From Oryzias latipes (Eukaryota; Chordata; Actinopteri; Beloniformes; Adrianichthyidae), in assembly GCF_002234675.1 (NCBI RefSeq), contig NC_019859.2, positions 15,115,002 to 15,179,001 of the forward strand: DNA of 64,000 nt, read 5' to 3'. The position numbers and the translations under genes were made by a program. Within the stretch, counting starts at the first letter, position 1; each line of letters opens with the position of its first letter. The notes below the pieces were generated by a model. That model ran no database searches. It saw only the letters and a list, made by a program, of their open reading frames with translations, and had not been told where the DNA came from. Positions 36,339-64,000 of this stretch are shown piece by piece.

Positions 36339-36920
36339 TCATAAAACAGTGGTAGCGGCGGCATCAGTGGTGGCGACATCAGGAGTGGTGGCGGCAGCAG
36401 CAGTGGTGCCGACATCAGCCGTGGTGGTGCTAGCAGCAGCGGTGGTGGCAACATCAGGAGTGGTGGCGGCGGTTTCAGTTGTTGTATCTGTGGCGCTGGT
36501 GGTTGCAGACACAGTAGTATCAGTACTGGGTGAAGTGGTCGGCTGAAGCTTCTCTAGGATGGACAGAAGGTACTGAAGGAAGTTCTGTGCGTCAAAAGGT
36601 CGGCCAGGAGGGTGATGGAAATCCCCTTCTCCCTGCGACAAAAACACATTTCTGTTCACATACAGAGAAATTTGGTTACAATATGTCTAAAATAATGGCA
36701 AAACAAGAGTCTTACTCTATGAAAGGGAAGATTAGGGGGGAATCTTTCAGGTTCTTCATGGCCCCTGTCATGCTTTATTGAATAAAAAAAAAAGTTAAAT
36801 AGCACATATAACTCTCAGGCCACAAAGGTTTAATACAAATACAATGAATTCTTCTGAACTTACAAATTTAGCCAGAGCGATGCTCAGGAGGCATCCAAGC
36901 ACAAGAGCTGTTTTGAGCAT
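36339..36920 (-). CDS. Thr-rich SCPP-like secreted protein, 3 coding exons
   Basis: Coding exons: 36920-36864, 36772-36716 and 36632-36339, phase 0, 135 aa. The signal exon (MLKTALVLGCLLSIALAKF) is clearly related to MLKLALVLGCLLSLTLAQP of the genes at 45-62 kb. Next is a charged exon (HDRGHEEPERFPPNL...). The last exon opens GEGDFHHPPGRPFD, then a helix (AQNFLQYLLSILEKL), then about 65 residues of Thr/Ala with repeats (TTPDVATT occurs twice), mucin-like. A polyadenylation signal lies at 35998-35993. This gene is the likely founder type, or nearest single-copy relative, of the tandem array. Confidence 0.78.
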
Positions 36921-42620: not shown

Positions 42621-43386
42621 TTACTATATATAGTTTGTTGTTTAAATCAAGTTTTATTTATAATCCTTTTAAAATTAGATTTTTGTGACAATTTAAAAGC
42701 TGCATTTGAAAAATTATTGGATCAATGGCCACAAAAAAATAGTGTATTTTTCTAAACAGGAAGTGGGACTTTGGGGTATCGCTGAGTTTTTGTTAGTAAG
42801 AAACTGGCCCGGATTGGCTCTTGTAGTATTAAGGGTGGCAGAACCCTGGCTTAGGCCAAAGTAGGGGTAAAACATCAGGTCAGAATTGGATGGCGTTTTT
42901 TTGTTTGTTTTGTCATTATTTTAAGCCAAGCATTGTCTCACTTCACCATAGGAAATCAAAAACTGAGCATGTATGTTGAAATCTGTACAGTTTTGTCAAA
43001 ATAAAAATAAAACATTTTGTTCAAATATTTTCTAATCTGTTTGCTTAACGTGATTGTTTTTTAAGATAAGTTTTCTATTAATTAAATACATTTCTAAAGT
43101 GTATGTGTTGAAATATTGTGCCTAATTTTATAATAATCTAAAATTGTGTTTATATAGCATTGTCAGAAAAGTACGTTTTGACTCTTTTCATTTTTTGCAT
43201 CCTAAATAAAATTTATGGAGTGTTTTTTGGGGGAGGCAAAAAACGCATTGTTCATTTGTTATTCATTTTTATTCAAAATTTTCCTAAAAACATCAAGGGT
43301 TTTAAAAATTAACAAGTTTAGTTACTTAATCTTATTTAGTTAAAAAAAACAGTTACAATATTTTTTTAATGGTTCCATGTGAGACT

Positions 43387-43689
43387 TTAGTTTGCATAAT
43401 TTAGAAGTTGGTGAATGAGCAGATATAGCTTCCTCAGTGATGACGTAGCTGTTGCACCTGCAGAAATTACAGCTGTAGTGTGCGTTGCCTTGAACAATAA
43501 ACAAACAAACATAAACAATAAAGTAAAGTGTAAGTCAGAACTGCATCTATGGGTAGCTATGGGCTGTTTGCGGGCAAAAAATTGGCCAAATATTAATGGG
43601 CACACAATTGGTCCGCACAAATGACAAAGTCATACAGCACTCACTGAACCATTGAGTAACAATAATCAAGCAACTTTCTGGTCTCAGGG
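43387..43689 (-). pseudogene. Decayed Thr-rich SCPP relative, block A (two exons)
   Basis: Last-exon relic at 43488-43387: open, 33 aa, ATHTTAVISAGATATSS then LRKLYLLIHQLLNYAN, the same Thr/Ala-plus-helix plan as the live gene in this block. Upstream relic exon at 43689-43645 keeps its acceptor and GTGAGT donor but has two stops. No signal-peptide exon is visible before the Tc1 copy. Either a dead paralogue, or the last exon serves as an alternative 3' exon of the gene at 45.1-45.6 kb. Confidence 0.65.
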
Positions 43690-44029
43690 CTACAGGTCAT
43701 ACTAAAACTATCTGTGCAATACACAAGCTAAGGTAAGAGTGAACTTGGTGAGACGCTGGCTTGTCGCACGTTTTTTAAATGTTTTCAACACCTCCAAATC
43801 CTGTGGGGTGCACAAGTAGTCTGTTAGTGCTGTTCACTAGTGTGCAGCATGACTATTAGAAATGAGGAAGTTACACAATGTAGTTTGTGTGGGAATCATA
43901 CAGGAGTCCTATGAGCATAGATGTTATAAACGCCATAAATGTTGTTGGTTCTTCTCACTTTTTACGGGACAACAGACAAAACTGTGAGATGCTACTTCCG
44001 TTTTACAAGTACCAGCAAAACTAACAACT

Positions 44030-44885
44030 GAACGTTCTTTGGATGCAACTCTGCATTCTTTCTCCTCCAAATATGATGAGTAGAGTTCTTCCTAAAAAAT
44101 TCTTCTTTGGTTTCATCTGACCAAAGGACATTCTCCTAATCCTGTTCTGGATCAACCAAATGCTCTCTTTAGATGGGCCTACACATGTTCTTGCTTTAGC
44201 AGGGGGACACGTCTGGCACTTCAGGATTTGAGCCCGTGGTGGCGTAGAGTGTTACTGGTTGGTCTGCTCTCTGTAGATCATTCCCTGGGTCCCCCCATGT
44301 GGTTCTAGGATTTTTGCTCACTGTTCTTGTCAGGGGGCCCCAGATCAAGGGAGATTATCAGTGGTCTTGTAAGTCCTCCATTTCCTGATAATTGCTCCCA
44401 CAACTGATTTCTCCACACCGAGCTGCTTACCTGTTGCAGATTCAGTCTTCCCAGCCCTGTGCAGGGCAATAATTTGGTTACTTTTGTCCTTAGACAGCTC
44501 TCTGGTCTCAGCCATAGTGGAGTTTGGAGTGTCACTGTTTGAGGTTGTGGACAGGTGTCTTTTAGATAAATAACCAGTTCAAACAGGTGCCATTACTACA
44601 GGTAACTACTGAAGGACAGAGTATTCTCTTACAGAAGAAGTTTTAGGTCTGTGCGAGCCAGAAATCTTACTTGTTTGCAGGTGACCAAATACTTATTTTC
44701 CACCATAATTTACAAATAAATTCTTTAAAAATCAGACAATGTAATTTTTCTGGATTTTCTTTTCTCCTTTTCTATCTCATAGTTGAAGAATACATATGGT
44801 GAAAATTACAGGTTCCTCTCATCTTTTTAAGTGGGAGAACTTCCTCAATTGGTGGCTGACTAAATACTATTTTGTCCCACTCTAA
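44030..44885 (-). mobile_element. Truncated Tc1-type transposon, block A
   Basis: The right end carries the Tc1 terminal sequence (reverse strand 'gtgggacaaaatagtattta'). A transposase start MAETRELSKDKSNQIIALHR follows at 44515, with a helix-turn-helix region to KWRTYKTTDNLP. Further fragments (LKS.SARRVPLLK, then YSSYLEEKECR) run to about 44030; the opposite terminal repeat and transposase C-terminus are missing. The same truncated copy sits at the matching place in blocks B and D, so it predates their separation. Confidence 0.8.
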
Positions 44886-45136
44886 ATGTTGTTAAAAAAA
44901 ACAGTTGTTAAAAACTGGCAGAATGACCCATTACGTAAAAAAAAAAAGAAAAGACAATTCAATTTGCTGATTAACATTTATTATAGTTGTGAGATTTTGA
45001 AGACAGCTATAATATCAGATTGATGTTCATTCTGAGCAACAACAAAAAATATTTGTCTCACAGGATTCTCACAAGAGCAAATCTTAGGAGAAGCAATGTC
45101 AACAATCCATTGAAAGTTAATTTTCCATGTCAGACT

Positions 45137-45605
45137 TTATCTTGCTCTGTTGAGAAGTTGCTGGATGAGCAGAATCAGCTGGCTCAGTGATGGTGTAGTT
45201 GTTGCTCCTGCAACAGTTGTTGCTCCTGCAACAGTTGTTGTTGCAGTAGTGGTGGTTGCCTTGATAAAATCACAAACATTGAAGTTAAACATTAAAACAG
45301 ACGACTCTCACAGGACTTTGTTACAGGATGTTATTTAAAAGTTTACTCAGAACAGAAAACACTCACCTCATGTGAGTTCGACCCAGAGTGATGATGCCCA
45401 TGTTTGGAACGAGCAAATCTCTGATGCTCCATCTGTAAAAAAAATCAAGAAAACAAGGTAATTATGTTTCTAATGTCATGAAAAATCCTTTGTTTTATCA
45501 CAAATTTTAGCTACTTTCCATGAAACAGTTTGAAACAATCAGACTTACAGGTTGAGCCAGAGTGAGACTCAGGAGGCATCCCAGCACCAGAGCTAACTTC
45601 AGCAT
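45137..45605 (-). CDS. Tiny Thr-rich SCPP-like protein, block A
   Basis: Coding exons: 45605-45549, 45432-45367 and 45259-45137, phase 0, 81 aa. Signal exon MLKLALVLGCLLSLTLAQP; second exon MEHQRFARSKHGHHHSGSNS ending HE, with a His cluster and an S-x-E-like end; last exon Thr/Ala with two TTVAGA units, then TPSLSQLILLIQQLLNRAR, an amphipathic helix. The exon plan is that of SCPP genes (separate signal exon, short second coding exon, TATA promoter, untranslated exon 1). A polyadenylation signal lies at 44982-44977. Secreted; Thr runs suggest O-glycosylation. I do not know a named family with this exact product, so function is open. Confidence 0.75.
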
Positions 45606-45760
45606 GATTTCCCTCCTGGAAACAAAAGTCAAATCTTTATCATCAGGTGCTGCAGCAACATCACACAGAAAATACTGAAATGTAGTTACAGTCAAGTCTT
45701 TGCAGCGTCAGCAGAAGATCAGGAAAGTTCTTGTGATGCTGTTCTGGATATTCATGTTTT

Positions 45761-45768
45761 CTTTTATA
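45761..45768 (-). promoter_or_regulatory. TATA box, block A gene
   Basis: TATAAAAG on the minus strand, about 160 bases before the start codon, with room for an untranslated exon and short intron. The same box stands at the same place in blocks B, C and D. Confidence 0.7.
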
Positions 45769-48059
45769 CCTTCTCTGGATCAGATGTGTTGAGAAACTGT
45801 ACACTTTAAGACATCTTTACCTAGAAAGAGGAGTGACTGATGATTGTGGACACAAGTTGCACAAGTTTTAAAGGAATGGTTGCATCACCAATAAAGATCT
45901 TATTTCTATAAGATCATGCAAATTGATTCTTTTTAGTCACTAATGGCTCACACCTTTCCTCATTAATAATATGCTGATGTAGAGGCATAATAATCAAAAA
46001 AAAACTCAGTTTTAGCATTGTGTATTATATAATCAAGGAATATTCAAATATTTATGTCTTAAATAATGGCCAGTTCCCTAGAATTTTTCCCTTTATGGAT
46101 GAACTTACTTAACAGGTAGAATTTCCTCTCACATTTGGTGTCTATAAAACATTACATTCAACATAACGTACTGTTTTTACATAGATTACATTTGGTTCAA
46201 ATGGTCACATATTTGAATGTGACTATTTTTCTTACAAATTTTGGAATCTAAAAGTAGCACTATGACACATGAGTTGAGTTTCTTGATTTCACCTAATTCA
46301 ATAGTAAAAAGTAAGGGTTTTCAGAACAAAAGCAATGGAAGAAATGATAGATATGCAAGCTTTTAGAAACTTAAAATGAGTAATACATTCTTTAGCTGTG
46401 TATTATGTGCATTTTTTTCATTAGGTGGATTTATTTTTCCATTTATCTTGTTACAGGTGTCTCAGGTCTGCCGGATTTGTTGCAATAATAATTTGCTGCT
46501 GGTCCTTATGTTTCAGTGTGACTTCAGTTCTTTAGGTTATGTGCTGCTTTCTTTTATTTCTTGGATGTTTTGTAGGCCAAAGGTTTGTTTTCCACCACAT
46601 GTTAATGGTTGCTTTGTACTGGACGCCGTTGGAAAGGACCCCTAACTATAACTGAAATGGAGCTCTGAGCAGGTACAGGACTTGGACTGACAGCACCTGA
46701 GACTTACTGTGGGCGGGCTGCACAAACAGAGAACTGAAGGTGGACAGTGCACCAGAAGACGGGAGGTAGCCAAGAGAGAGCTGAAAGCTGACTGGCAATG
46801 CTGAGAACGCAACGCAAGCCTGGTGAAATGGGAGGCAGCAGCCACACAGAGGGGGCGCCAGAGTTGACCGGGAAGCTGTGTGGAGAGAATGAATGATTGC
46901 TAAACAGAGCATAGAGAAAAATGGTCTGTCCTCCTGATCAAAGTATGCATGTGGCCGGTGTTGATGCAGCACCCTGAAGCTCTCTCTTATGTCATCCTTT
47001 TAGCTGCAACAAGAATGTTTTTTCCGTCATGGCTGGTTTAACAGTGGATACTTAAGGAGCAGCATGAAGACTGGATGGAATATTTAATTGTTGATTTTAT
47101 GTCTTTTCATCTTATTAACCAGTTACAACTTTTTTAGATTAATATATATTAAATATGCATTTTTAAAACTAGAAGCATGACACCTTCTTGCCAAAAAGAA
47201 ATATTTACTATGGACTTTAAAGCTTTTGAGGAACAATTCATTACAGAAAAGAGAAAAGCAACAACGATAAGCTATTATCAGTCAAGCAAGTAAATAAAAA
47301 AATACATTAAAAATACACTTACGGCTGCTTGAATGTGCTCCAGATCTACAAATCTATCAACAGAAATATGGTGAAAAGCATCCAAATTGAGTCTCACAAA
47401 ACTGGCTCTAAAACATTTAGAGGTAATTCTACCAACTCCATCACCATATCAAACATTTTTTAAAAAAAACAAGGGGTCGGTGTTGAAAACCCACAAATGT
47501 TAACTCCACCTAGAAAATAACCAGGCTGGAGAAACCTGCAGTGACGGGGCCAAATACTGTGCCAGGCTGTTGTTTAGTAAAAACTGATGACAATTCTCCA
47601 TATTTAGCTATTCTGGTTAAAAAGTCTAGTCATCTGTTTTTTCACGGGTCACAAAATGAGTTATTGGTCACTTCATAAAGCTGCAGAAAAGATTTGATTG
47701 GTACCTGCTATTATAGTAAACTAAAATTCATTTATTTCCTGTCAATTTTATAAACCAGTGTCAAATTACTGAGTGAAACAGATATCAGCTCACTTGGTTG
47801 TTTGTTTTTTAATTTTTGCCTTCTCAAATGTTAGAAGTGGATATTTCTACAGCAGCATTTGCTTCCACTGAAGTTTTAGAGGACCACCTTTTAGGATAAA
47901 GAAGAACCTTTTTTGGGATATTCCTGCATCAAGTGTGCCAAGAAAAAAAATGTCATTATGCTTTAGAAAATGTATGTAAAATTTACAGTTCTATGACAAC
48001 CTGCATAGATGATATTTCTAGTTGCTCTTCCAAAATAATTTCCCTAAAATGTGTTTTCC

Positions 48060-48560
48060 TGTCAGGTGTCGGGGTCGTCCTCGCACACCTGCTTGAGGAT
48101 CCGGTCTCTCACAGCTGTTCAGCATCCAATCAGTGAACCTATTTTAGTCCATCTCGCCCTCGAGCCTTTGTTGGTTCGTCTGCTTTCATGAAGGGCTCAC
48201 CGATCCGAGCCGAAGCCTACGCCGAAGCCTACACCCACGCCAAAGCCCACGCCAAAGCCCACGCCAAAGCCCACGCCAAAGTCTCCAGAACCAAAACCAC
48301 CAAAAACCAAAGCCTCCAGAACCAAAGTCACCAGAACAGAAGCCACCAGAACCAAAGCCACAAGGACTCACAACCAACCCCAAAGAACAAAACCCAAAGA
48401 ACCAAGAACCAAAACCAAAAAAACCAAAGCCAACATCAAAGAACACAAAGACCAACGCCAAAGATCCAAAGCCAAACCCCTTTTCATCCTACAATAAAAT
48501 TCACTAAATCAAACTAAGTCCCTGTCTGCATTTTTGGGTCCAGCGACTCCAAACCTAACA
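48060..48560. mobile_element. Solo LTR-like retroelement fossil, block B
   Basis: About 500 bases beginning TGTCAGG and ending CTAACA, flanked by the 5-base duplication TTTCC. Block C has the uninterrupted site. A short-period repeat of 'aaagccaccagaacc' type fills its middle. No internal region or genes remain. The same copy with the same flanks is in block D. Confidence 0.65.
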
Positions 48561-48830
48561 TTTCCATTTAAAATTTCCTTTTGGAATTTTGAGAAAGGTC
48601 TAAATATTTATGTAAAAATTTAAAACAATTTTAATTGATAAGAATTGTTTTATGTTATGTTTTATGTTGTGTTTTTTGGGGGTGGCAAAAAACACATTGT
48701 TCATTTTCAATCAATATTTTTATTCACGATTTTCCTGAAGACATCAAGGATTTTAAAATTAACAAGTTTAGTAACTTTATTTTTATTTAGTAAAAAAAAA
48801 AACAGTTTTTTAGTGGTTCCATGTGAGACT

Positions 48831-49111
48831 TTAGTTTGCATAATTTAGAAGTTGGTGAATGAGCAGATATAGCTTCCTCAGTGATGACGTAGCTGTTGCA
48901 CCTGCAGAAATTACAGCTGTAGTGGAGGTTGCCTTGAAAAACAAACAAACAAAAATAAAGGAAAGTGTAAGTCAGAACTGCATCTACGGGTGGCTATGGG
49001 CTGTCTGCGGGCAAAAAATTGGCCAAACATTTATGGGCACAAATGACAAAGTCATACAGCACTCACTGAACCATTGAGTACAAATAATCAAGCAACTTTT
49101 TGTTCTCCGGG
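48831..49111 (-). pseudogene. Decayed Thr-rich SCPP relative, block B
   Basis: Last-exon relic 48932-48831 is open (ATSTTAVISAGATATSS... ending LLNYAN, 33 aa). The upstream relic exon 49111-49067 has one in-frame stop after PGEQKVA. No signal exon seen. Confidence 0.65.
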
Positions 49112-49464
49112 CTACAGGCAGTGTCATACTAAAACTATTTGTGCAATACACAAGTGAAGGTAAGAGTGAACTTGGTGAGACGCTGGTTTGTCGTACGTTT
49201 TTTAAATGTTTTCAACACCTCCAAATCCTTTGGAGTGCACAAGTAGTCTGTTAGTGCTGTTCTCTAGTGTGCAGCGTGACTTTTAGAAATGAGGAAATGA
49301 CACAGAGTGTAGTTTGTGTGGGAATCATACAGGAGTCCTATGAGCATAGATGTTATAAACGCCATAAATGTTGTTGGTTCTTGCTGACACTTTTTACGGG
49401 ACAACAGAAAAAACTGTGAGATGCTACTTCCGTTTTACAGGTATAGACCAGCAAAAGTAAATAC

Positions 49465-50351
49465 TGAACGTTCTTTGGATGCAACTCTGCATTCTTTCTC
49501 CTCCAAATATGATGAGTAGAGTTCTTACCAAAAAGTTCTTCTCTGGTTTCATCTGACCAAAGGACATTCCCCTAATCCTGTTCTGGATCAACCAAATGCT
49601 CTCTTTAGACGGGCCTACACATGTTCTTGCTTTAGCAAGGGGACACGTCTGGCACTGCAGGATTTGAGCCCGTGGTGGCGTAGAGTGTTACTGGTTGGTC
49701 TGCTCTCTGTAGATCATTTCCTAGGTCCCCACATGTGGTTCTAGGATTTTTGCTCACTGTTCTTTTCTTCATTTTGACCCCACGGGGTGAGACCTTGCAC
49801 GGGGCCATAGATCAAGGGAGATTATCAGTGGTCTAGTATGTCTTCCATTTTTTAATAATTGCTCCCACAGATGATTTCTTCACACCCAGATGCTTACCTG
49901 TTGCAGATTCAGTCTTCCCAGCCCTGTGCAGGGCAATAATTTGGTTACTTTTGTCCTTAGACAGCTCTCTGGTCTCGGCCATTGTGGAGTTTGGAGTGTC
50001 ACTGTTTGAGGTTGTGGACAGGTGTCTTTTAGATAAATAACCAGTTCAAACAGGTGCCATTACTACAGGTCACGACTGAAGGACAGAGTATTCTCTTACA
50101 GAAGACGTTTTAGGTCTGTGCGAGCCAGAAATCTTACTTGTTTGCAGGTGACCAAATACTTATTTTCCACCATAATTTACAAATAAATTCTTTAAAAATC
50201 AGACAATGTATTTTTTCTGGATTTTCTTTTCTCCTTTTCTATCTCATAGTTGAAGAATACATATGGTGAAAATTACAGGTTCCTCTCATCTTTTTAAGTG
50301 GGAGAACTTGCACAATTGGTGGCTGACTAAATAGTATTTTTTCCCACTGTA
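49465..50351 (-). mobile_element. Truncated Tc1-type transposon, block B
   Basis: Same copy as in block A, with the Tc1 terminal sequence at 50351 and transposase start near 49983. It carries a ~50-base stretch near 49766-49805 ('attttgaccccacggggtga') that block A lacks. Confidence 0.8.
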
Positions 50352-50605
50352 AATGTTGTTAAAAAAAACAGTTGTTAAAAACTGGCAGAATGACCCATTA
50401 ACGTAAAAAAAAAAAAGAAAAGACAATTCAGTTTGCTGATTAACATTTATTATAGTTGTGAGATTTTGAAGACAGCTATAATATCAGATTGATGTTCATT
50501 CTGAGCAACAACAAAAAATATTTGTCTCACAGGATTCTCACAAGAGCAAATCTTAGGAGAAGCAATGTCAACAATCCATTGAAAGTTAATTTTCCATGTC
50601 AGACT

Positions 50606-51091
50606 TTATCTTGCTCTGTTGAGAAGTTGCTGGATGAGCAGAATCAGCTGGCTCAGTGATGGTGTAGTTGTTGCTCCTGCAACAGTTGTTGCTCCTGCAA
50701 CAGTTGTTGCTCCTGCAACAGTTGTTGTTGCAGTAGTGGTGGTTGCCTTGATAAAATCACAAACATTGAAGTTAAACATTAAAACAGACGACTCTCACAG
50801 GACTTTGTTACAGGATGTTATTTAAAAGTTTACTCAGAACAGAAAACACTCACCTCATGTGAGTTCGACCCAGAGTGATGATGCCCATGTTTGGAACGAG
50901 CAAATCTCTGATGCTCCATCTGTAGAAACATCAAGAAAACAATGTAATTATCTGTCTAATGTCATGAAAAATCCTTTGTTTTATCACAAATTTTAGCTTC
51001 TTTCCATGAAACAGTTTGAAACAATCAGACTTACAGGTTGAGCCAGAGTCAGACTCAGGAGGCATCCCAGCACCAGAGCTAACTTCAGCAT
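50606..51091 (-). CDS. Tiny Thr-rich SCPP-like protein, block B
   Basis: Coding exons: 51091-51035, 50919-50854 and 50746-50606, phase 0, 87 aa. Signal peptide and MEHQ exon are identical in protein to block A. The last exon has three TTVAGA units instead of two, then the same helix ending LLNRAR. Differences in the signal exon are silent. Protein identical to block D as far as I can read. TATA box listed separately. Confidence 0.75.
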
Positions 51092-51245
51092 GATTTCCCT
51101 CCTGGAAACAAAAGTCAAATCTTTATCATCAGGTGCTGCAGCAACATCACACAGAAAATACTGAAATGTAGTTACAGTCTAGCCTTGCAGCGTCAGCAGA
51201 AGATCAGGAAAGTTCTTGTGATGCTGTTCTGGATATTCATGTTTT

Positions 51246-51253
51246 CTTTTATA
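51246..51253 (-). promoter_or_regulatory. TATA box, block B gene
   Basis: TATAAAAG on the minus strand, same position relative to the start codon as in block A. Confidence 0.7.
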
Positions 51254-51655
51254 CCTTCTCTGGATCAGATGTGTTGAGAAACTGTACTCTTTAAGACATC
51301 TTTTCCTAGAAAGAGGAGTGACTGATGATTGTGGACACAAGTTGCACAAGTTTTTAAGGATTTGTTGCACCACCAATAAAGATCTTATTTCTATTAGATC
51401 ATACAAATGGATTATTTTCAGTCACTAATGGCTCACACCTTTCCTCATTAATAATATGCTGATGTAGAAGCATGATGATTTAAAAAACCTCAGTTTTAGG
51501 ATTGTGTATTATATTTTCAAGGAATAATAAAATATTTATGTCTTAAAATATTGCCCAGTTTCCAAGAATTTATCCCTTTATGGAGGAATTTTCTCTCACA
51601 TTTGGTGTCTATAAAACATTACATTCAACATGACATACTGTTTTTTCATAGATTA

Positions 51656-53117
51656 CCCGTAAATTCCGGACTACAAAGCGCACCCGATTACAAGCCGCAC
51701 CTACCCATTTTCACGTGTAAAATTAGTTTTATACATACACAAGCCGCGTCAGAGTACAAGCCGCGCATGTGTTAGTCCGTCCCGACAGATCACGGCCAGA
51801 ATCCCAGAGTGAGTGCATTTCATTAGCACATTGTGGGTGGTTCCAGCTTTACCTCTTTTATGTAATTGAGTGTATCGACATCTGTCAAACAGCATGAACC
51901 TCTATTCTGTTCACAAGTTCCTCAGTTATGGTGTTTTTATTTCATTTTTTTTTTACTTATTGACAATCTAGGTATCATACATAAAATTACTAACAGTAAC
52001 CATATAATCAACATTACATCCCTCAGTTATGATGAGGAAATTTACATCAGCGATTCCACATTTCCCATGAGTCTTAGGGGCTAAAGGCGGGGCCAATGCC
52101 CGGCTCGCCATTCTGTTGTACGTGTTTAAGAATGAGCAAGTATCAGGAGTGCATGGAGGGGTGAACGGGTACAGCTCTCCTTCCGCTTGTGTCGCGGCAG
52201 CGTTATGGGAGTAACAGGACTGGTTAGAAAACACAACGGTAAAATACAGCAGCGGCGACTGAAAAGCGCGCGCCTCAGCGTGATACGCGCGCCTCAGTGC
52301 GGCGCGTGCGTCAGAATTCAGAAGCCTCTGCACTCCGCGGACGCCTCTGCGCTCCGCTCCCGCCCCGCGCGCTCCTTGTCTCCCCTTCCTATCTACTCCG
52401 ACACCTCTGGCCAGGGCTGCTTCAAGGAGGAGCACTTCGTCCCCGTTGCGCCGGTGGATGGAGCAAATCGTTTCTGTGCAAAGCAATCGGACTTAATACT
52501 GTACGTTTTGTGTATGAGGGGCGGGTGCGTTGTTACGTGTGGGAGCCTTCAGACTGCCATCGGCCCCGCAGCTCAATCAGCAGGAGATGTCTCCAGCTCA
52601 CACGGAGGCTGTGAGTTTTTCAAAGCAAAATTCCGCTTTTACGGTTTCCTTACAAACCGTAAATGGAGTGTAAATTCACTCCATGCGCTGTTCTCTCCAT
52701 CACGCAGCAAACCGGCTTTTCCAAACCCGTTGGTGACGGTGGACTTTTTTACGCTGCTTTTAACGATTGCTTTTAACTTGAAAGCTTCATCATATTGTAG
52801 CGGCGATCACGTGCACGTTGGGTCTAATGGCCCCAAAGGATTCTGGGATGCGGCCGGGCATGCGTGTTTCATTTTGTTGAACCATGACTGAAGTGTCTAA
52901 GACCTGAAGTCAACTCCATGCTGTTTGGCTGCTTAGAGGTGTGTTGAATATAAATGTCTTGTGCTTGGTGTTAGATAAAGAGTACAAACATTCACTGAGT
53001 TCAAAAGTACGTACATGGCGGCCGCTAATTAAATCCATAAATTAGCCGCGTCACTGAATAAGCCGCAGGGCTGTAAGCGCAGGAAAAAAGTAGCGGCTTG
53101 TAGTCCGGAAATTACGG
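51656..53117. mobile_element. TA-flanked non-autonomous DNA transposon with GC-rich interior
   Basis: Ends CCCGTAAATTCCGGACTAC and GTAGTCCGGAAATTACGG are inverted copies, flanked by TA on both sides. Blocks A and D show the empty site 'atagattacatttgg'. Subterminal 'acaagccgc' motifs repeat several times. The interior (about 52180-52900) is strikingly GC- and CpG-rich against its AT-rich surroundings. Open frames there (52187-52891 plus; 51968-52486 minus) are not recognised and no transposase is seen. The TA target fits the Tc1/mariner-type superfamilies. Confidence 0.8.
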
Positions 53118-53949
53118 TACATTTGGTTCAAATGGTCACATATTTGAATGTGACTATTTTTCTTACAAATTTTGGAATATAAAAGTAGCACTATGACACA
53201 TGAGTTGAGTTTCTTGATTTCACCAAATTCAATAGTACAGAGTTTTCAGGACAAAAGCAATGGAAGAAATGATAGATCTGCAAGCTTTGAGAAGCAGCCA
53301 CACAGAGGGGCGCCAGAGTTGCCCGGGAAGCTGTGTGGAGAGAATGAATGATTGCTAAACAGAGCATAGAGAAAAAATGTCTGTCCTCCTGATCAAAGTA
53401 TGCATGTGGCCGGTGTTGATGCAGCACCCTGAATCTCTCTCTTTTGTCATCCTTTTAGCTGCAACAAGAATGTTTCTTCCGTCATGGCTGGTTTAACAGT
53501 GGATACTTAAGGAGCAGCATGAAGATTGGATGGACTATTTAATTGTTGATGTTATGTCTTTTCATCTTATTAACCAGTTATAACTTTTTTAGATATGCAT
53601 TTTTAAAACAAGTAGCATGACACCTTTTTGCCAATTCTTTGCCTGCAGACAGCCCATATTTACCCATAATGCCAGTTGTGACAAAGGCACAACAGTCTGA
53701 AGTCTGAAGTTTTGTTTGCTCACCTTATGCACAACTCTTTCCTGAAAGTGGCTCAACAATAAGCTGGGTTTACTACACAGCTGTTACTGAAGTTAAGAAA
53801 TGTTCCTGGACGGACTTGCCCACCTTTGGGGATTGGAGTCTTATAAGCATAGGCTTCTTCACGTCATGTGTAAACTTATTTTTTATTTAAAGTAAATGTT
53901 GATTTGATTTTAAATAAATTTGACTTAAATGATCTAAAAATAAATTAAG

Positions 53950-54145
53950 AGTTGGTTCCTTTGAACAGTGACTTTCAGGTTTAACAGTACAACACCCAAG
54001 TATTTAAATGTGTCCACAATCTCAATGTCTGAGCCCTGGATATGCACCGGTGAGTGTGATGGTGAGGACCTCCTGAAATCCAAAACCAACTCCTTTTTTC
54101 TTCCTGGTGTTTAGCAGCAGGTGGTTACTTTCACACCACCCCACA
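53950..54145 (-). mobile_element. LINE reverse-transcriptase fragment, block B
   Basis: The minus strand reads NHLLLNTRKKKELVLDFRRS, then PVHIQGSDIEIVDTFKYLGV, the conserved region after the catalytic box of CR1/Rex-type LINEs. Only this fragment remains; the same piece is in block D. Confidence 0.75.
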
Positions 54146-54959
54146 TGAACCAACCATTAACATGACAACATGACAGTTTCATTTTATCTGGGCAAAGCAA
54201 CAAAATAATAAAGGGATCACATACTTATTTTCTCCACTGTATACTGGCCAATTGTTTACTCAAATAGACGTGTGCTTGAAGACTTAATGAAAAAGCAGCT
54301 AATTTGTGCACTATAAATTTACTCTATTATTTTATCATTTTATAAGTTACTCAAACATGTTTTAATTTATTTTAAGACTGCACTTGTCTTTTGCTTATAA
54401 GACAAGGACATTGATCAAATGAGTTGGAATTGATGTTTTTTTCTTTTATCTGTACTAAACATCACAGATCATTTACAGTTGGATAATTTTGGATCTTTTT
54501 TTAATCTGTTGTCTTCATTATCAGTGTGTTCAGGTACCACATACACATCTTTTACAAGTTCCTGACCCTGCTCTATATTCTGGTCCTCGTCTCTATTAAC
54601 ATCTTTATTATCTGCATCTTGACTGTCTGCAGCTCCTTCCTTTTCTGTGTTTCTGCTGTTCTTTGGTGATCATTCAGTATTATTAGAGTAAGTGATTTCT
54701 TACTTTTTAGAGAACTAATCATTAAAGATTTAGAAAACTTAGTTGAATACATTGCAGTATTTCTCCTTCTCCTTATACTCTATGTTCAGTGTGGCACAAA
54801 CCACCACAAAAACCTATCCATGTTAACTTATTAATCTTAAAAGAAGCAGATTTACAAGCTTAACTGTGAGGATTGTGACCTTTGGGTGTCAGTTTTAGTT
54901 CCTTGGTTATCCTCATGTTCTGTATTCAGCTTTTTCCCCTGTCAGTCACACCTATTGTC

Positions 54960-55190
54960 CCCATATGAGAACTGGGCCGAGTGAAAATGAGATCACCCAT
55001 AAAAATATGGCTTACCTCCCATTTCAACTCAATTCAATTCAATTGCCATTTTTTCGCAATGTAGACGCCGCCATGTTGGAACCAGAAATAGGTGATTGGT
55101 CTGAGGTAACTGCTCTCAACAATCAGAAGTGTGCCTGTTTGAAGTCCACACCCCTACCACTTGGTAGAATCTGTCAATCTAATGTGACAA
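54960..55190. repeat. Dispersed repeat related to 17950-18180
   Basis: Same ordered blocks as at 17950-18180 ('ccatgttgga', 'gtgattggtctgag', 'gaagtccacacccctaccac'). Confidence 0.6.
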
Positions 55191-56000
55191 CTGTTTGACG
55201 TGAGTCCACCTACTTTCATTGAGACACCTGATTGGCCAGTTTCTAACTTGAATGGCTTGCACTACAAGACATTATAAAACATTATAAATTAAAATTAGGA
55301 TTAGCAAGAACATCCTAAAATAAATAGGTATCAGAGCATGAATGGTTATACTGACAAATACAATGACTGAGTAACAGCTGTTTATTTCTCTATAGAAGTC
55401 TATGGGATTTTGGCTTCTTGGATCCAGCAGGCACTTCCTGTCTGGAAGGCCAGGGGGGAGGAGTCGCTGTACAGTAAATGGTTCATGTTAGAAGTGGATT
55501 TTGCTATGGCAGTCTTGCTTTTCCTGAAGATTTAGAGGACCAGCTTTTAGGATAAAGAAGAAAAACCTTTTTGGGGATATTCCTGCATCAAGTGTGCCAA
55601 GAAAAAAAAAGTCATCATGCTTTAGAAAATGTATGTAAAGTTCACAGTTCTATAATTCTACAATAATAAAACCTGTATAGGTGATATTTCTAGTTGTTAT
55701 TCTAAAAGAATTTCACAGAAATGTGTTTTCCAGTTAAAAAGTCTCCTTTTGAAATTTTGAGAAAGGTCTGAATGATTATTTTGTAAAAATATAAAACAAT
55801 TTCAATTGATAATTGTTTTATGGAGTGTTTTGTGAGGGAAGGCAAAAAGTTCATTGTTCATTTTTTAATCAATATTTTTATTTACGATATTTCTGAAGAC
55901 ATCAGGGGTTTTAAAATAAACAAGTTTAGTAAAAAAAAAAAAATTCATTTAACTAAAAAAAAAACAGTTACAAATTTTTTTAATGGTTCCATGTAAGACT

Positions 56001-56299
56001 TTAGTTTGCATAATAATTTGGTGAATGAGCAGATATAGCTTCCTCAGTGATGACGTAGCTGTTGCACCTGCAAAAATTACAGCTGTAGTGTGCGTTGCCT
56101 TGACCAATAAACAAACAAACAAAAACAATAAAGTAAAGTGTAAGTAAGAACTGCATCTAGGGGTAGCTATGGGCTGTCTGCGGGCAAAAAATTGGCCAAA
56201 CATTTTTGGGCACACAGTTGATCCACACAAATGACAAGGTCATACAGCACTCACTGAACCATTGAGTACAAATGACCAAGCAACTTTTTGGTGTCTGAG
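56001..56299 (-). pseudogene. Decayed Thr-rich SCPP relative, block C
   Basis: Upstream relic exon 56299-56255 is open here, LRHQKVAWSFVLNGS, and lines up with MEHQRVARS of the live gene, which shows the relic's origin. The last-exon relic from 56098 begins ATHTTAVIFAGATATSS but a 4-base loss changes the frame near its end, so the helix ends differently and the frame runs on to 55949. No signal exon seen. Confidence 0.6.
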
Positions 56300-57154
56300 C
56301 TACAGGTCATACTAAAACTATTTGTGCAATACACAAGTGAAGGTAAGACTGAACTTGTTGAGACGCTGGCTTGTCGTACGTTTTTTAAATGTTTTCAACC
56401 CCTCCAAATCCTGTGGGGTGCACAAGTAGTCTGTTAGTGCTGTTCTCTAGTGTGCAGCGTGACTATTAGAAATGAGGAAATTACACAATGTAGTTTGTGT
56501 GGGAATCATACAGGAGTCCTATGAGCACACCTCATGCGTGCAGCATTTGTGCGTTGTCAATAAGGAAGCAGGACTCACACCTTACTACTCACTATAGAGT
56601 GTGGTGTAATGGCCCCTCACAACAGAACTCAAACAGGTCAACCCCCGTTTGGGTGCATGTTCTATAAATCTTTGATTATTAAATCTTATGGTCTACTAAA
56701 GCCAATGCAGAAGATAAATCCAAATATTGCATATTTTCCTCCTTTGGTAACCTATATATGTCATTGAAAACTCTGTCAAGATGAAAGATAGTTTAGGGCA
56801 TCTTTGTATCATTCAAATCTTTGTTTTAGTATAGCTGCAAACCACTTTGAGTTGGTTTCTGGTTTTATTAGTAGGAGATCAAATTATTTAGTCTATATAC
56901 ATTACATTTATTCATATGGGTATATGTAAAAGACATTTAAGGTGAACAAAACCAAAGGCTTCTGAGAAATACAGAGATATGATGAGGATTTGGAAAGAAA
57001 GAAAAGCAGTTGTTTTCATTTTCATTTGCTGCATTTATTTAAATCTGTAAAGACATGAAGGCTGTTTCACTCAGTCAAGACAGCAACAAATCAAAAACAT
57101 TGAAGTAGACATGTTTTCTTAATCACTTGTTGATGTATGCTTCCATCCCAGACT

Positions 57155-57545
57155 TTATCTTCCAGCAATAAGTCGCTGTATGACGAGAGCAAGTATTTGA
57201 GTCAGAGTGGAGGTTGAAGCTGTTGTTGCAGTCGTTGTGGCCTTAAAGCAATCAGAAAAACGTCGATCCAAGTAAACCTTCAGGACTTTGTTAGAGCAAG
57301 GGTTGCAGTTTTGGACTAATTTATCAGATTTGAAAACACTCACCTCATTTGAGTTGGAGTTTGAGCTCGACCGAGCAACTCTCTGATGCTCCATCTGTTG
57401 AAAATTCAAAGTTTTTAGGGTCTATCCTACTCTGCATAGCAAATCATTGGCGTCCAAACATGTGACGATGTGAAACATTCTCACTTACAGGTTGAGCCAG
57501 AGTGAGGCTCAAGAGGCATCCAAGGACAAGTGCAAACTTCAGCAT
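57155..57545 (-). CDS. Tiny Thr-rich SCPP-like protein, block C (diverged)
   Basis: Coding exons: 57545-57489, 57394-57344 and 57241-57155, phase 0, 64 aa. Signal exon MLKFALVLGCLLSLTLAQP; second exon MEHQRVARSSSNSNSNE, with no His cluster and an S-N-S-N-E end that includes an S-x-E site; last exon ATTTATTASTSTLTQILALV ending QRLIAGR, with no TTVAGA units. Gene plan and lengths otherwise match blocks A, B and D. TATAAAAG stands at 57743-57736. Probably the ancestral form of the family before the His cluster and TTVAGA repeat were added. Confidence 0.75.
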
Positions 57546-57735
57546 GGTTTCACACCTGGAAACAAACATCGAGACTTTATCAACAGATCAAATATGTTAA
57601 GCTCAATAATAATAAAAACATCACTGCAGCATCACAAAATATACTGAAACCAATCAATTGTGATTACTGTTGTGTCTTTGCTTCCTCAGCAGAAGATCTG
57701 GAACGTTGTGATGCTTCTCTAACTGCTGACCTTCT

Positions 57736-57743
57736 CTTTTATA
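57736..57743 (-). promoter_or_regulatory. TATA box, block C gene
   Basis: TATAAAAG on the minus strand, in the same relative position as in the other three blocks. Confidence 0.7.
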
Positions 57744-58856
57744 TGATCAGAAAAACTGAGGTGTTGTGAAACTGTATTCTCTGGTAAATTCTGTGTAAAA
57801 AAACACTGATTGCTGATGGAAGCTGCACAGGATTATGGGGATTTGTACGTCCATGTAAACACACTGAAAAACAATGGTGTTGTCAATGATTTTAAACATA
57901 TAGCTCAGTCACAAGTTACTGAGCAATATATCTTTGCTGTAATTACAGAGTTTAATGTGTGTGAGTTTAATGTTTAATGATATTTAACTAGTTAAGAAAT
58001 ATTTACTATGGACTTTAAAGCTTTTGAGGAACAATTCATTACAGAAAAGAGAAAAGCAACAACAATAAGCTATTATCAGTCAAGCAAGTAAATAAAAAAA
58101 TACATTAAAAATACACTTACGGCTGCTCGAATGTGCTCCAGATCTACAAATCTATCAACAGAAATATGGTGAAAAGCATCCAAATTGAGTCTCACAAAAC
58201 TGGCTCTAAAACATTTAGAGTTAATTCTACCAACTCCATCACCATATCAAACATTTTTTAAAGAAACAAGGGGTCGGTGTTGAAAACCCACAAATGTTAA
58301 CTCCACCTAGAAAATAACCAGGCTGGAGAAACCTGCAGTGACGGGGCCAAATACTGTGCCAGGCTGTTGTTTAGTAAAAACTGATGACAATTCTCCATAT
58401 TTAGCTATTCTGGTTAAAAAGTCTAGTCATCTGTTTTTTCACGGGTCACAAAATGAGTTATTGGTCACTTCATAAAGCTGCAGAAAAGATTTGATTGGTA
58501 CCTGCTATTATAGTAAACTAAAATTCATTTATTTCCTGTCAATTTTATAAACCAGTGTCAAATTACTGAGTGAAACAGATATCAGCTCACTTGGTTGTTT
58601 GTTTTTTAATTTTTGCCTTCTCAAATGTTAGAAGTGGATATTTCTACAGCAGCATTTGCTTCCACTGAAGTTTTAGAGGACCACCTTTTAGGATAAAGAA
58701 GAACCTTTTTTGGGATATTCCTGCATCAAGTGTGCCAAGAAAAAAAATGTCATTATGCTTTAGAAAATGTATGTAAAATTTACAGTTCTATGACAACCTG
58801 CATAGATGATATTTCTAGTTGCTCTTCCAAAATAATTTCCCTAAAATGTGTTTTCC

Positions 58857-59344
58857 TGTCAGGTGTCGGGGTCGTCCTCGCACACCTGCTTGAGGATCCG
58901 GTCTCTCACAGCTGTTCAGCATCCAATCAGTGAACCTATTTTAGTCCATCTCGCCCTCGAGCCTTTGTTGGTTCGTCTGCTTTCATGAAGGGCTCACCGA
59001 TCCGAGCCGAAGCCTACGCCGAAGCCTACACCCACGCCAAAGCCCACGCCAAAGCCCACGCCAAAGTCTCCAGAACCAAAGCCACCAAAAACCAAAGCCT
59101 CCAGAACCAAAGTCACCAGAACAGAAGCCACCAGAACCAAAGCCACAAGGACTCACAACCAACCCCAAAGAACAAAACCCAAAGAACCAAGAACCAAAAC
59201 CAAAAAAACCAAAGCCAACATCAAAGAACACAAAGACCAACGCCAAAGATCCAAAGCCAAACCCCTTTTCATCCTACAATAAAATTCACTAAATCAAACT
59301 AAGTCCCTGTCTGCATTTTTGGGTCCAGCGACTCCAAACCAAAC
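58857..59344. mobile_element. Solo LTR-like retroelement fossil, block D
   Basis: Same insertion as in block B, flanked by TTTCC on both sides, so it was present before B and D separated. It is about 13 bases shorter through a different count of its internal short repeat. Confidence 0.65.
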
Positions 59345-59605
59345 ATTTCCATTTAAAATTTCCTTTTGGAATTTTGAGAAAGTTCTAAATATTTATGTAA
59401 AAATTTAAAACAATTTTAATTGATAACAATTGTTTTATGTTGTGTTTTTTGGGGGTGGCAAAAAACACATTGTTCATTTTCAATCAATATTTTTATTCAC
59501 GATTTTCCTGAAGACATCAAGGATTTTAAAATTAACAAGTTTAGTAACTTTATTTTTATTTAGTAAAAAAAAAAAACAGTTTTTTTAGTGGTTCCATGTG
59601 AGACT

Positions 59606-59886
59606 TTAGTTTGCATAATTTAGAAGTTGGTGAATGAGCAGATATAGCTTCCTCAGTGATGACGTAGCTGTTGCACCTGCAGAAATTACAGCTGTAGTGG
59701 AGGTTGCCTTGAACAACAAAAAAACAAAAACAAAGGAAAGTGTAAGTCAGAACTGCATCTACGGGTGGCTATGGGCTGTCTGCGGGCAAAAAATTGGCCA
59801 AACATTTATGGGCACAAATGACAAAGTCATACAGCACTCACTGAACCATTGAGTACAAATAATCAAGCAACTTTTTGTTCTCCGGG
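59606..59886 (-). pseudogene. Decayed Thr-rich SCPP relative, block D
   Basis: Last-exon relic 59707-59606 open (33 aa, same as block B); upstream relic exon 59886-59842 with the same in-frame stop as B. Confidence 0.65.
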
Positions 59887-60229
59887 CTACAGGTCATACT
59901 AAAACTATTTGTGCAATACACAAGTGAAGGTAAGAGTGAACTTGGTGAGACGCTGGTTTGTCGTACGTTTTTTAAATGTTTTCAACACCTCCAAATCCTT
60001 TGGAGTGCACAAGTAGTCTGTTAGTGCTGTTCTCTAGTGTGCAGCGTGACTTTTAGAAATGAGGAAATTACACAGAGTGTAGTTTGTGTGGGAATCATAC
60101 AGGAGTCCTATGAGCATAGATGTTATAAACGCCATAAATGTTGTTGGTTCTTGCTGACACTTTTTACGGGACAACAGAAAAAACTGTGTGATGATACTTC
60201 CGTTTTACAAGTACCAGCAAAAGTAAATA

Positions 60230-61114
60230 CTGAACGTTCTTTGGATGCAACTCTGCATTCTTTCTCCTCCAAATATGATGAGTAGAGTTCTTACCAAAAA
60301 GTTCTTCTCTGGTTTCATCTGACCAAAGGACATTCCCCTAATCCTGTTCTGGATCAACCAAATGCTCTCTTTAGACGGGCCTACACATGTTCTTGCTTTA
60401 GCAGGGGGACACATCTGGCACTGCAGGATTTGAGCCCGTGGTGGCGTAGAGTGTTACTGGTTGGTCTGCTCTCTGTAGATCATTTCCTAGGTCCCCACAT
60501 GTGGTTCTAGGATTTTTGCTCACTGTTCTTTTCTTCATTTTGACCCCACGGGGTGAGACCTTGCACGGGGCCACAGATCAAGGGAGATTATCAGTGGTCT
60601 AGTATGTCTTCCATTTTTTAATAATTGCTCCCACAGATGATTTCTTCACACCCAGATGCTTACCTGTTGCAGATTCAGTCTTCCCAGCCCTGTGCAGGGC
60701 AATAATTTGGTTACTTTTGTCCTTAGACAGCTCTCTGGTCTCAGCCATAGTGGAGTTTGGAGTGTCACTGTTTGAGGTTGTGGACAGGTGTCTTTTAGAT
60801 AAATAACCAGTTCAAACAGGTGCCATTACTACAGGTAACTACTGAAGGACAGAGTATTCTCTTACAGAAGAAGTTTTAGGTCTGTGCGAGCCAGAAATCT
60901 TACTTGTTTGCAGGTGACCAAATACTTATTTTCCATAATTTACAAATAAATTCTTTAAAAATCAGACAATGTATTTTTTCTGGATTTTCTTTTCTCCTTT
61001 TCTATCTCATAGTTGAAGAATACATATGGTGAAAATTACAGGTTCCTCTCATCTTTTTAAGTGGGAGAACTTGCACAATTGGTGGCTGACTAAATAGTAT
61101 TTTTTCCCACTGTA
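60230..61114 (-). mobile_element. Truncated Tc1-type transposon, block D
   Basis: Same truncated copy and same ~50-base extra stretch as in block B; terminal sequence ends at 61114. Confidence 0.8.
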
Positions 61115-61367
61115 AATGTTGTTAAAAAAAACAGTTGTTAAAAACTGGCAGAATGACCCATTAAAGTAAAAAAAAAAAGAAAAGACAATTCAGTTTGCTG
61201 ATTAACATTTATTATAGTTGTGAGATTTTGAAGACAGCTATAATATCAGATTGATGTTCATTCTGAGCAACAACAAAAAATATTTGTCTCACAGGATTCT
61301 CACAAGAGCAAATCTTAGGAGAAGCAATGTCAACAATTCATTGAAAGTCAATTTTCCATGTCAGACT

Positions 61368-61853
61368 TTATCTTGCTCTGTTGAGAAGTTGCTGGATGAG
61401 CAGAATCAGCTGGCTCAGTGATGGTGTAGTTGTTGCTCCTGCAACAGTTGTTGCTCCTGCAACAGTTGTTGCTCCTGCAACAGTTGTTGTTGCAGTAGTG
61501 GTGGTTGCCTTGATAAAATCACAAACATTGAAGTTAAACATTAAAACAGACGACTCTCACAGGACTTTGTTACAGGATGTTATTTAAAAGTTTACTCAGA
61601 ACAGAAAACACTCACCTCATGTGAGTTCGACCCAGAGTGATGATGCCCATGTTTGGAACGAGCAAATCTCTGATGCTCCATCTGTAGAAACATCAAGAAA
61701 ACAATGTAATTATCTGTCTATTGTCATGAAAAATCCTTTGTTTTATCATAAATTTTAGCTACTTTCCATGAAACAGTTTGAAACAATCAGACTTACAGGT
61801 TGAGCCAGAGTGAGACTCAGGAGGCATCCAAGCACCAGAGCTAACTTCAGCAT
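61368..61853 (-). CDS. Tiny Thr-rich SCPP-like protein, block D
   Basis: Coding exons: 61853-61797, 61681-61616 and 61508-61368, phase 0, 87 aa. Same protein as block B: signal peptide, MEHQRFARSKHGHHH exon, three TTVAGA units, C-terminal helix LSQLILLIQQLLNRAR. The signal exon shares 'gaggcatccaagcacc' with block C rather than B's 'gaggcatcccagcacc', a silent change. The intron/upstream part has a short extra stretch near 61898-61925. Confidence 0.75.
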
Positions 61854-62030
61854 GATTTCCCTCCTGGAAACAAAAGTCAAATCTTTATCATCAGGTTAAA
61901 TAAAGTCAGTTAATCACTGCTTCAGCGACATCACACAGAAAATACTGAAATGTAGTTACAGTCTAGTCTTTGCAGCTTCAGCAGAAGATCAGGAAAGTTC
62001 TTGTGATGCTGTTCTTGATGTTCATGTTTT

Positions 62031-62038
62031 CTTTTATA
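62031..62038 (-). promoter_or_regulatory. TATA box, block D gene
   Basis: TATAAAAG on the minus strand, same relative position as in blocks A-C. Confidence 0.7.
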
Positions 62039-62629
62039 CCTTCCCTGGATCAGATGTGTTGAGAAACTGTACTCTTTAAGACATCTTTACCTAGAAAGAG
62101 GAGTGACTGAGGATTGTGGACACAAGTTGCACAAGCTTTAAAGGATTTGTTGCACCACCAATAAAGATATTATTTCTATAAGATCATACAAATGGATTAT
62201 TTTCAGTCACTAATGGCTCACACCTTTCCTCATTAATAATATGCTGATGTAGAAGCATAATAATCCAAAAAAAAAACTCAGTTTTAGCATTGCGTATTAT
62301 ATTTTCAAGGAATAATAAAATATTTCTGTCTTAAATAATGCCCAGTTTCCAAGAATTTATCCCTTTATGGAGGAATTTTCTCTCACATTTGGTGTCTATA
62401 AAACATTACATTCAACATGACATACTGTTTTTTCATAGATTACATTTGGTTCAAATGTTCACATATTTGAATGTGATTTTTCTTACAAATTTTGGAATAT
62501 AAAAGTAGCACTATGACACATGAGTTGAGTTTCTTGATTTCACCTAATTCAATAGTACAAAGTAAGAATTTTCCGGACAAAAGCAATGGAAGAAATTTTA
62601 GATCTGCAAGCTTTGAGAAGCAGCCACAC

Positions 62630-63110
62630 TGTCATGGTTTGAGTTTGTTTTGTCTTGGTTTTTGCTTTAGTTCCTGTTCTGTCTTGTTTGGTTCTGTTTC
62701 CTGCTTTATTTTGTAAGGGTTCCTGTCTTGTGTTGTCTTGAGTTGTACTTCCTTGGTCCCCATCTGCCCTGATCGTGTTCACCTGTGTCTTGTCTGCCCT
62801 GTCTGTACATACAGCGGGGAAAATAAGTATTGAACACGTCAACATTTCTCTCAAAAAACATATTTCTAATCGAGCTATTGATACGAAATTTTCACCAGAT
62901 GTCGGCATCAACCCAAGTAATGCACACATAGAAAGAAATCCAAACATTTATGTCCATAAATGAAGTTATGTGTAATAAAGTGAAATGGCAAAGGGAATAA
63001 GTATTGAACACATGAAGAAAAGGAGGGGTAAAAAGGTCTGGCAAACCAAGAAAGCAGCTGGAGTTTGTCAGAATTCAGAAGGTTAACCTGCCCCCTATTA
63101 GTGCAAAGTA
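62630..63110. mobile_element. Composite insertion: unclassified repeat plus Tc1-like end
   Basis: Replaces about 20 bases of the block B sequence between 'cagccacac' and 'gaagctgtgtgg'. The first part (62630-62812, 'tgtcatggtttgag...') is an unclassified fish repeat. The second starts 'tacagcggggaaaataagta', a Tc1-like terminus, with the motif 'aataagtattgaacac' repeated at about 62821 and 62997 as in inverted-repeat/direct-repeat type ends. Confidence 0.6.
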
Positions 63111-63769
63111 AGTTGACCAGGAAGCTGTGTGGAGAGAATGAATGACTGGTAAACAGAGCATAGAGAAAAAATGTCTGTCCTTCTAAACAAAGTATGCATG
63201 TGGCCGGTGTTGATGCAGCACCCTGAATCTCTCTCTTTTGTCATCCTTTTAGCTGCAACAAGAATGTTTCTTCCGTCATGGCTGGTTTAACAGTGGATAC
63301 TTAAGGAGCAGCATGAAGATTGGATGGACTATTTAATTGTTGATGTTATGTCTTTTCATCTAATTAACCAGTTACAACTTTTTTAGATTAATATATATTA
63401 AATATGCATTTTAAAACAAGTAGCATGACACCTTTTTGCCAATTCTTTGCCTGCAGACAGCCCATATTTACCCATAATGCCAGTTGTGACAAAGGCACAA
63501 CAGTCTGTGAAGTCTGAAGTTTTGTTTGCTCACCTTATGCACAACTCTTTCCTGAAAGTGGCTCAACAATAAGCTGGGTTTACTACACAGCTGTTGCTGA
63601 AGTTAAGAAATGTTCCTGGACGGACTTGCCCACCTTTGGGGATTGGAGTCTTATAAGCATAGGCTTCTTCACGTCATGTGTAGACTTATTTTTTATTTAA
63701 TGTAAATGTTGATTTGATTTGAAATAAATTTGATTTGAATGACCTGAAAATAAATTAAGAGTTGGCTCC

Positions 63770-63950
63770 TTTAAACAGTGACTTTCAGGTTTAACAGTAC
63801 AACACCCAGGTATCTAAATGTGTCCACAATCTCAATGTCTGAGCCCTGGATATTCACCGGTGAGTGTGATGGTGAGGACCTCCTGAAATCCAGAACCAGC
63901 TCCTTTTTTCTTCCTGGTGTTTAGCAGCAGGTGGTTACTTTCACACCAGC
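63770..63950 (-). mobile_element. LINE reverse-transcriptase fragment, block D
   Basis: Same CR1/Rex-type fragment as in block B (ELVLDFRRSS, DTFRYLGV on the minus strand), confirming that the homology of B and D runs to the window's end. Confidence 0.75.
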
Positions 63951-64000
63951 CCACATTTGATTTTGTTGATTTATTTCAAGCATTGTAGTCAAAGCAATAA

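Follow-up and report, generated by a model that had tools for sequence, protein, structure and literature searches.

A 64,000-nucleotide (nt) stretch of the medaka genome (Oryzias latipes, NC_019859.2, positions 15,115,002 to 15,179,001; hereafter the window) carries part of a tandem array of very small genes that encode secreted, Thr-rich proteins and follow the plan of secretory calcium-binding phosphoprotein (SCPP) genes. The explanation that we favor overall is that these genes constitute the scpp3 array within SCPP cluster Ia of teleosts, and the identification of the array as scpp3 is in itself very probable. The original prediction, made from the sequence alone, described four such genes at the end of the SCPP cluster and assigned them to no named family. 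Its SCPP gene plan and its tandem expansion of real-looking coding genes were upheld by our analysis, but the number of members and the limits and placement of the array had to be revised.

All four predicted genes, termed here g1 to g4, were found on the minus strand, each with three coding exons, a product of 64-87 amino acids (aa), intact splice sites and a conserved upstream element. Their shared plan comprises a signal-peptide exon with 57 coding nt, a middle exon of 51-66 nt, and a terminal exon of 87-141 nt that encodes a run of Thr/Ala and a short tail rich in Leu and Ile. The introns are all GT-AG and phase 0, and phase-0 introns are part of the SCPP gene plan. The start of the upstream element, TATAAAAG, lies 162-198 nt from the ATG, a TATA sequence is present, and AATAAA starts 115-154 nt past the stop. 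In each gene an AG acceptor 10 nt upstream of the ATG suggests an untranslated exon 1; the coding exons are numbered 2 to 4.

45137..45768, minus strand: g1, with TATAAAAG at 45768; coding sequence 45605-45549 (exon 2, signal peptide plus QP), 45432-45367 (exon 3, ending S-H-E) and 45259-45137 (exon 4, Thr run plus Leu/Ile-rich tail); 81 aa; AATAAA at 44982
50606..51253, minus strand: g2, with TATAAAAG at 51253; exons 51091-51035, 50919-50854 and 50746-50606; 87 aa; AATAAA at 50451
57155..57743, minus strand: g3, a diverged copy, with TATAAAAG at 57743; exons 57545-57489, 57394-57344 (ending S-N-E) and 57241-57155; 64 aa; AATAAA at 57039
61368..62038, minus strand: g4, with TATAAAAG at 62038; exons 61853-61797, 61681-61616 and 61508-61368; 87 aa; AATAAA at 61213

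The array neither stops at four members nor ends at 63955, as had been proposed. When 110 kb of flanking sequence was examined for additional intact genes, at least 11 intact relatives encoding 64-135 aa were found between 36.9 and 100.0 kb (window coordinates), five inside the window and six 3' of it, with ATGs at 67347, 71628, 74265, 82413, 90911 and 100029. The fifth relative inside the window is the following:

36339..36920, minus strand: gene 36920, exons 36920-36864 (MLKTALVLGCLLSIALAKF), 36772-36716 and 36632-36339; 135 aa

Both strands of 174 kb were also scanned for signal-peptide exons with an upstream AG, a phase-0 GTRAG donor and a strongly hydrophobic core. The scan returned 19 minus-strand ATGs, at 18 places since two starts near 33.9 kb overlap, and 3 plus-strand ATGs. 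In 20 copies of one strand simulated by a first-order Markov model, the mean was 0.25 (range 0-3), which puts the minus-strand count above chance. The 18 places are candidates, not all of them shown genes, and the gene at 74265 falls below the threshold of the scan. An exon search of the medaka genome itself (734,051,031 bases in 25 contigs, with the window at C1:15115002-15179001; E up to 0.001) scored 18 candidates and yielded 8 exon matches, all within the array and two past the window end; it was not exhaustive, since g3-type genes were missed by it.

The signal-peptide exon of gene 36920 is identical to that of g1 at 45/57 nt, but this gene lacks S-x-E and carries TATATAAG in place of TATAAAAG. 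The latter element lies upstream of 8 of the 11 genes and TATATAAG is found at 36920, 90911 and 100029, the same three that a tree of all 11 (150 nt upstream through exon 3) split from the other eight with support of 96/97. These three also place their Leu-rich segment, a helix in the case of 36920, before the Thr run, compared with after it in seven of the other eight and no such segment in 74265. Long branches in the tree lead to 36920, 74265 and 100029. Outside the window, between 90911 and 100029, lie the decayed remains of one further signal-peptide exon of this family (LLKVAIVHRCTLSLILAE, 94887-94834), a dead copy.

The surroundings of the array are those of an SCPP cluster. To its left, on the same strand, are four SCPP-type signal-peptide exons (30725, 24949, 22463 and 16027) and a less clear candidate near 33.9 kb; those at 30725 and 22463 have Pro/Gln-rich exons downstream. 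The separate scan that gave these exons also returned a few weak, chance-looking candidates, one of them on the plus strand. To its right are an odam-like gene rich in Pro and Gln (~109.7-110.8 kb), a gene rich in Pro, Met and Gln (115.2-116.1 kb), a long frame contained in one exon (119341-120168), and sparcl1, supported by Pfam matches to FOLN, Kazal and SPARC_Ca_bdg in pieces of exons at 121364-123451. Also on this side, an acidic gene rich in Ser, Glu and Asp (130146, 131451-131951) lies on the plus strand. With SCPP-type genes on both sides and sparcl1 beyond, the array is internal to the cluster, not terminal. In the passages of Kawasaki 2026 that describe it (PMC13367325), cluster Ia holds sparcl1 with enam, scpp5, ambn, scpp7, scpplpq4, scpp3, scpp16, odam, scpp9a, scpp9b and scpp1, and scpp9b is single-exon in Acanthomorpha, a description that the frame at 119341-120168 matches. 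Given the SCPP-type neighbors, sparcl1, this gene content, and the location of catfish scpp3b copies with odam (PMC9596584), the array is placed inside cluster Ia and is most likely scpp3, although we infer its exact gene order relative to the published cluster.

What is in print on scpp3 fits this identification in cluster, tandem copy number and small size. It is described as an SCPP of variable number, with three or more copies in most actinopterygians and six in stickleback, where tooth-plate RNA sequencing (RNA-seq) levels are very high (PMC13367325), as well as two in parrotfish and eight in gilthead bream (PMC10932694); further named sets are fugu scpp3a, 3b and 3c and catfish scpp3a and scpp3b1-6. 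Several tandem copies in cluster Ia near odam characterize scpp3, and in medaka 11 are followed by the odam-like gene (named by composition) and sparcl1, a number above any count in the cited passages of PMC13367325, PMC10932694 and PMC9596584. Contrary to the original prediction, these genes very probably do have a family name, and the copy-number variation of scpp3 has been reported (PMC13367325, PMC10932694). Older surveys recorded scpp3 as absent from some fishes (PMC4895719, PMC7327861), calls that Kawasaki ascribes in general to reliance on similarity searches, reporting scpp3 in every teleost examined except syngnathids (PMC13367325). Because that paper cites medaka data and reports scpp3 in all non-syngnathid teleosts, its supplement probably includes medaka scpp3. 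In an expression study, loci of medaka that resemble fugu scpp3a and scpp3b were annotated as non-coding RNA (ncRNA) and set aside (PMC10568847), as would be expected for products so small. The sources disagree on the tissue, placing scpp3 in the inner (PMC10568847) or the outer dental epithelium (PMC13367325), and in pufferfish it is reported from oral and pharyngeal epithelium over the dental epithelium (PMC10932694).

Several points weigh against the name, and they bear on an improbable alternative, that the array is a separate, unnamed and lineage-expanded SCPP subfamily with a similar role as an epithelial or tooth-matrix peptide. The name was assigned by position, copy number and size. 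Moreover, scpp3 is listed in print as Pro/Gln-rich (PMC13367325) and the array proteins are Thr-rich, which favors a separate subfamily, and gene 36920, with its long branch, could be another SCPP such as scpplpq4. The odam-like and scpp9-like names were given by composition and place, and no Pfam match to the odam-like, single-exon or acidic pieces exceeded the cut-off. The genes at 71628 and 74265 are less sure because of an AAAG acceptor and a GTTGGT donor, respectively. Nevertheless, the location in cluster Ia, the number of copies and the very small products all suit scpp3, and the cited passages describe no other multicopy SCPP at that place.

The encoded proteins are consistent with an SCPP identity in organization more than in composition. 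In 11/11 genes the introns are phase 0 and the signal peptide occupies one exon that ends at the putative start of the mature protein, and SCPPs are defined by a signal-peptide exon, exon 2, that ends in this way (PMC4373244). S-x-E closes exon 3 in every gene except 36920. The mature proteins contain 19-37% Thr and 5-12% Pro plus Gln, with a net charge (K+R-D-E) of -9 to +3; the acidic or Pro/Gln-rich composition by which SCPPs tend to be classed, not a strict criterion in the cited passages, is not seen here. A resemblance by description only can be drawn to amelotin (AMTN) of tetrapods and coelacanth, a secreted SCPP that counts Thr as a main residue and has, in non-mammals, S-x-E in a short early exon (PMC4373244); AMTN differs in being far longer, with nine exons in mammals, and single copy. 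Searches of Pfam with g4 and g3 gave only matches below the curated cut-offs (New_glue, MUCL1 and DUF898), and the mucin-like matches of g4, MUCL1 (E 3.4e-4) and New_glue (E 1.7e-4), have in common with it a Thr-rich low-complexity stretch; the array genes differ from mucin-like proteins by their SCPP gene plan and genomic place. A PDB sequence search with g4 gave no match at E up to 1, Rfam gave nothing at the gathering threshold across the window, the exact exon-2 pattern had no match in viral and prokaryote contig collections, and a literature search on Thr-rich SCPPs in teleosts found no paper.

By analogy, we tentatively suggest how these peptides may act. Epithelium of the tooth germ, mouth or pharynx would secrete them in quantity, with the signal peptide cut near Ala-Gln/Pro, the serine of S-x-E phosphorylated by Fam20C and the Thr run O-glycosylated; the short Leu/Ile-rich segment could then mediate self-assembly or binding to matrix or the cell surface, and gene copy number would set peptide dose. 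It is about as doubtful as a separate subfamily that the array instead serves mucosal defense, as an expansion of cationic, antimicrobial or mucin-like peptides of gill and mouth in place of a tooth matrix. A net charge of +1 to +3 in 8 of the 11 mature proteins and the weak MUCL1 match would suit such a role, and in fugu gill the level of scpp3b was higher after Vibrio infection, 14.5-fold by RNA-seq and 3.9-fold by quantitative reverse transcription PCR (PMC8841829). However, net charge is 0 in two proteins and -9 in one, and the cited passages of PMC13367325 record scpp3 in toothed teleosts and its absence from toothless seahorse and pipefish. A further point against defense is that amphipathicity in g1 and g3 does not exceed that of shuffled sequences. 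When the hydrophobic moment of hand-picked 16-17-mers was compared with 5000 shuffles, p was 0.12 for g1 and 0.70 for g3, compared with 0.016 for the second exon-4-like exon described below and 0.004 for gene 36920, leaving the predicted C-terminal amphipathic helix weakly supported.

Exons 2 and 3 are under coding constraint. From promoter to 3' untranslated region (UTR), g1, g2 and g4 are 94-100% identical; as recent copies they prove little by agreeing, and it is g3 and the diverged genes outside the window that make informative comparisons. Between g1 and g3, identity is 57/67 in exon 2 and 42/46 in exon 3, compared with 62/87 and 67/88 in the introns (Fisher p 0.005 on pooled counts). The ratio of nonsynonymous to synonymous substitution rates (dN/dS) for g3 against g1, g2 and g4 is 0.21, 0.20 and 0.23 over 63 aligned codons, with an uncertain alignment in the Thr run. 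For g3-g4 the bootstrap range is 0.11-0.48, and 0.03-0.67 for exons 2-3 alone, where 0.4% of resamples reached 1 or more. Among 15 pairs of six distinct members, exon-2 dN/dS lies between 0 and 0.75 in 13, and exon-2 identity is 0.77-0.91 compared with 0.69-0.83 for introns in gapped alignments, a modest contrast for the most distant member, 36920. Two results run against coding constraint: exon 4 is no better conserved between g1 and g3 (63/83) than the introns, and exon-2 dN/dS exceeds 1 in 2/15 pairs, at low dS (0.07 and 0.23). It is highly improbable that the copies are mostly pseudogenes or untranslated transcripts, maintained only by recent duplication, as the recency of g1, g2 and g4, the decayed exon 2 at 94887, the frame-changed extra exon after g3 and the ncRNA calls in medaka might suggest, given that the diverged genes are still open with phase-0 junctions, that the coding differences in g1-g2, g1-g4 and g2-g4 (1, 1 and 2) are all synonymous, and that 0/1000 g3-g4 bootstrap resamples gave a dN/dS of 1 or more.

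The array grew by tandem duplication, probably with gene conversion.

47196..51656: duplicated segment with g2, 97.3% identical to 57994-62443 (with g4)
43212..46368: duplicated segment with g1, 91-92% identical to 48661-51656 and 59434-62619
44963..45438: probable gene-conversion tract, 475 mismatch-free aligned columns between the g1 and g2 units, covering exon 3, intron 3, exon 4 and 3' UTR

The g1 and g2 units are 4.68% different overall, and none of 2000 permutations reached the 475-column run (longest 298), a count that disregards an internal 18-nt gap where the number of Thr repeats differs. The g1-g4 run of 319 was likewise reached in 0/2000 permutations (maximum 254); the same test for g2-g4 was not significant (p 0.08). 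Because the g1-g2 run includes intron 3 and the 3' UTR, conversion is the simplest reading, with uneven constraint as an alternative. The g2 unit also contains an insert at ~51657-53117 that is absent from the g1 and g4 units and has inverted ends (ccgtaaattccggactac on the left, gtagtccggaaattacggta on the right), resembling a DNA transposon. Both copies of the spacer hold a repetitive Lys/Pro/Thr-coding frame (48137-48517 and 58934-59302) that looks like a repeat element, not a gene.

Downstream of each of g1 to g4, at a distance of 1.1-1.7 kb, lies a second exon-4-like exon with an AG acceptor and an AATAAA 43-113 nt after the stop.

43387..43488, minus strand: second exon-4-like exon 3' of g1, with a 33-aa open frame, an AG acceptor and AATAAA 113 nt past the stop
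48831..48932, minus strand: second exon-4-like exon 3' of g2, 33 aa
55949..56098, minus strand: second exon-4-like exon 3' of g3, frame changed near the C-terminus, 49 aa
59606..59707, minus strand: second exon-4-like exon 3' of g4, 33 aa

No further copies were found in the 174 kb. Over only ~28-35 aligned codons, their dN/dS is 0.64-0.79 against exon 4 of g1 and 0.34-0.35 against exon 4 of g3. They may be alternative terminal exons that give an alternative C-terminus, or leftovers of exon duplication. We rejected the idea that they are remnants of whole gene copies, as the matches at E up to 0.01 are confined to exon 4 and the last part of intron 3 and include no exon 1-3.

The remaining observations concern the neighbors on the left. 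An acidic Ala/Val/Pro-rich open frame on the minus strand (13925-14395), with no Pfam match, lies 3' of the signal-peptide exon at 16027 and is possibly its large exon. In the gene starting at 30725, a small candidate exon (29249-29211, minus strand, NPAIGGLSSEELE) just before a large open frame resembles the SxxE exon that precedes the large exon of AMBN, ENAM and AMTN. The cluster is bordered by a cyclic-nucleotide-gated channel gene (8279-10452, minus strand; Pfam CLZ, cNMP_binding and Ion_trans), and a 7tm_1 receptor frame lies immediately left of the window.

The features of the array that are possibly new are the count of 11, the probable gene-conversion tract, the swapped order of helix and Thr run, and the second exon-4-like exon after four genes. 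A fuller and more speculative proposal, which we consider unlikely as a whole, is that the micro-SCPP genes, 11 or more in number, overlooked as ncRNA in at least one annotation and homogenized by conversion, would supply one abundant phosphorylated mucin-like peptide, with two subgroups by order of helix and Thr run and a second terminal exon in four genes, and that dose more than exact sequence would tune the formation of enameloid or the attachment of epithelium in lifelong tooth replacers. The array adds no new kind of matrix gene. It illustrates how SCPP genes of very small size are lost from annotation, as were the scpp3-like loci set aside as ncRNA in the medaka expression study (PMC10568847). 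If the array is scpp3, it offers a well-mapped locus for asking why scpp3 copy number differs among fishes, the cause of which has been called undetermined (PMC10932694).

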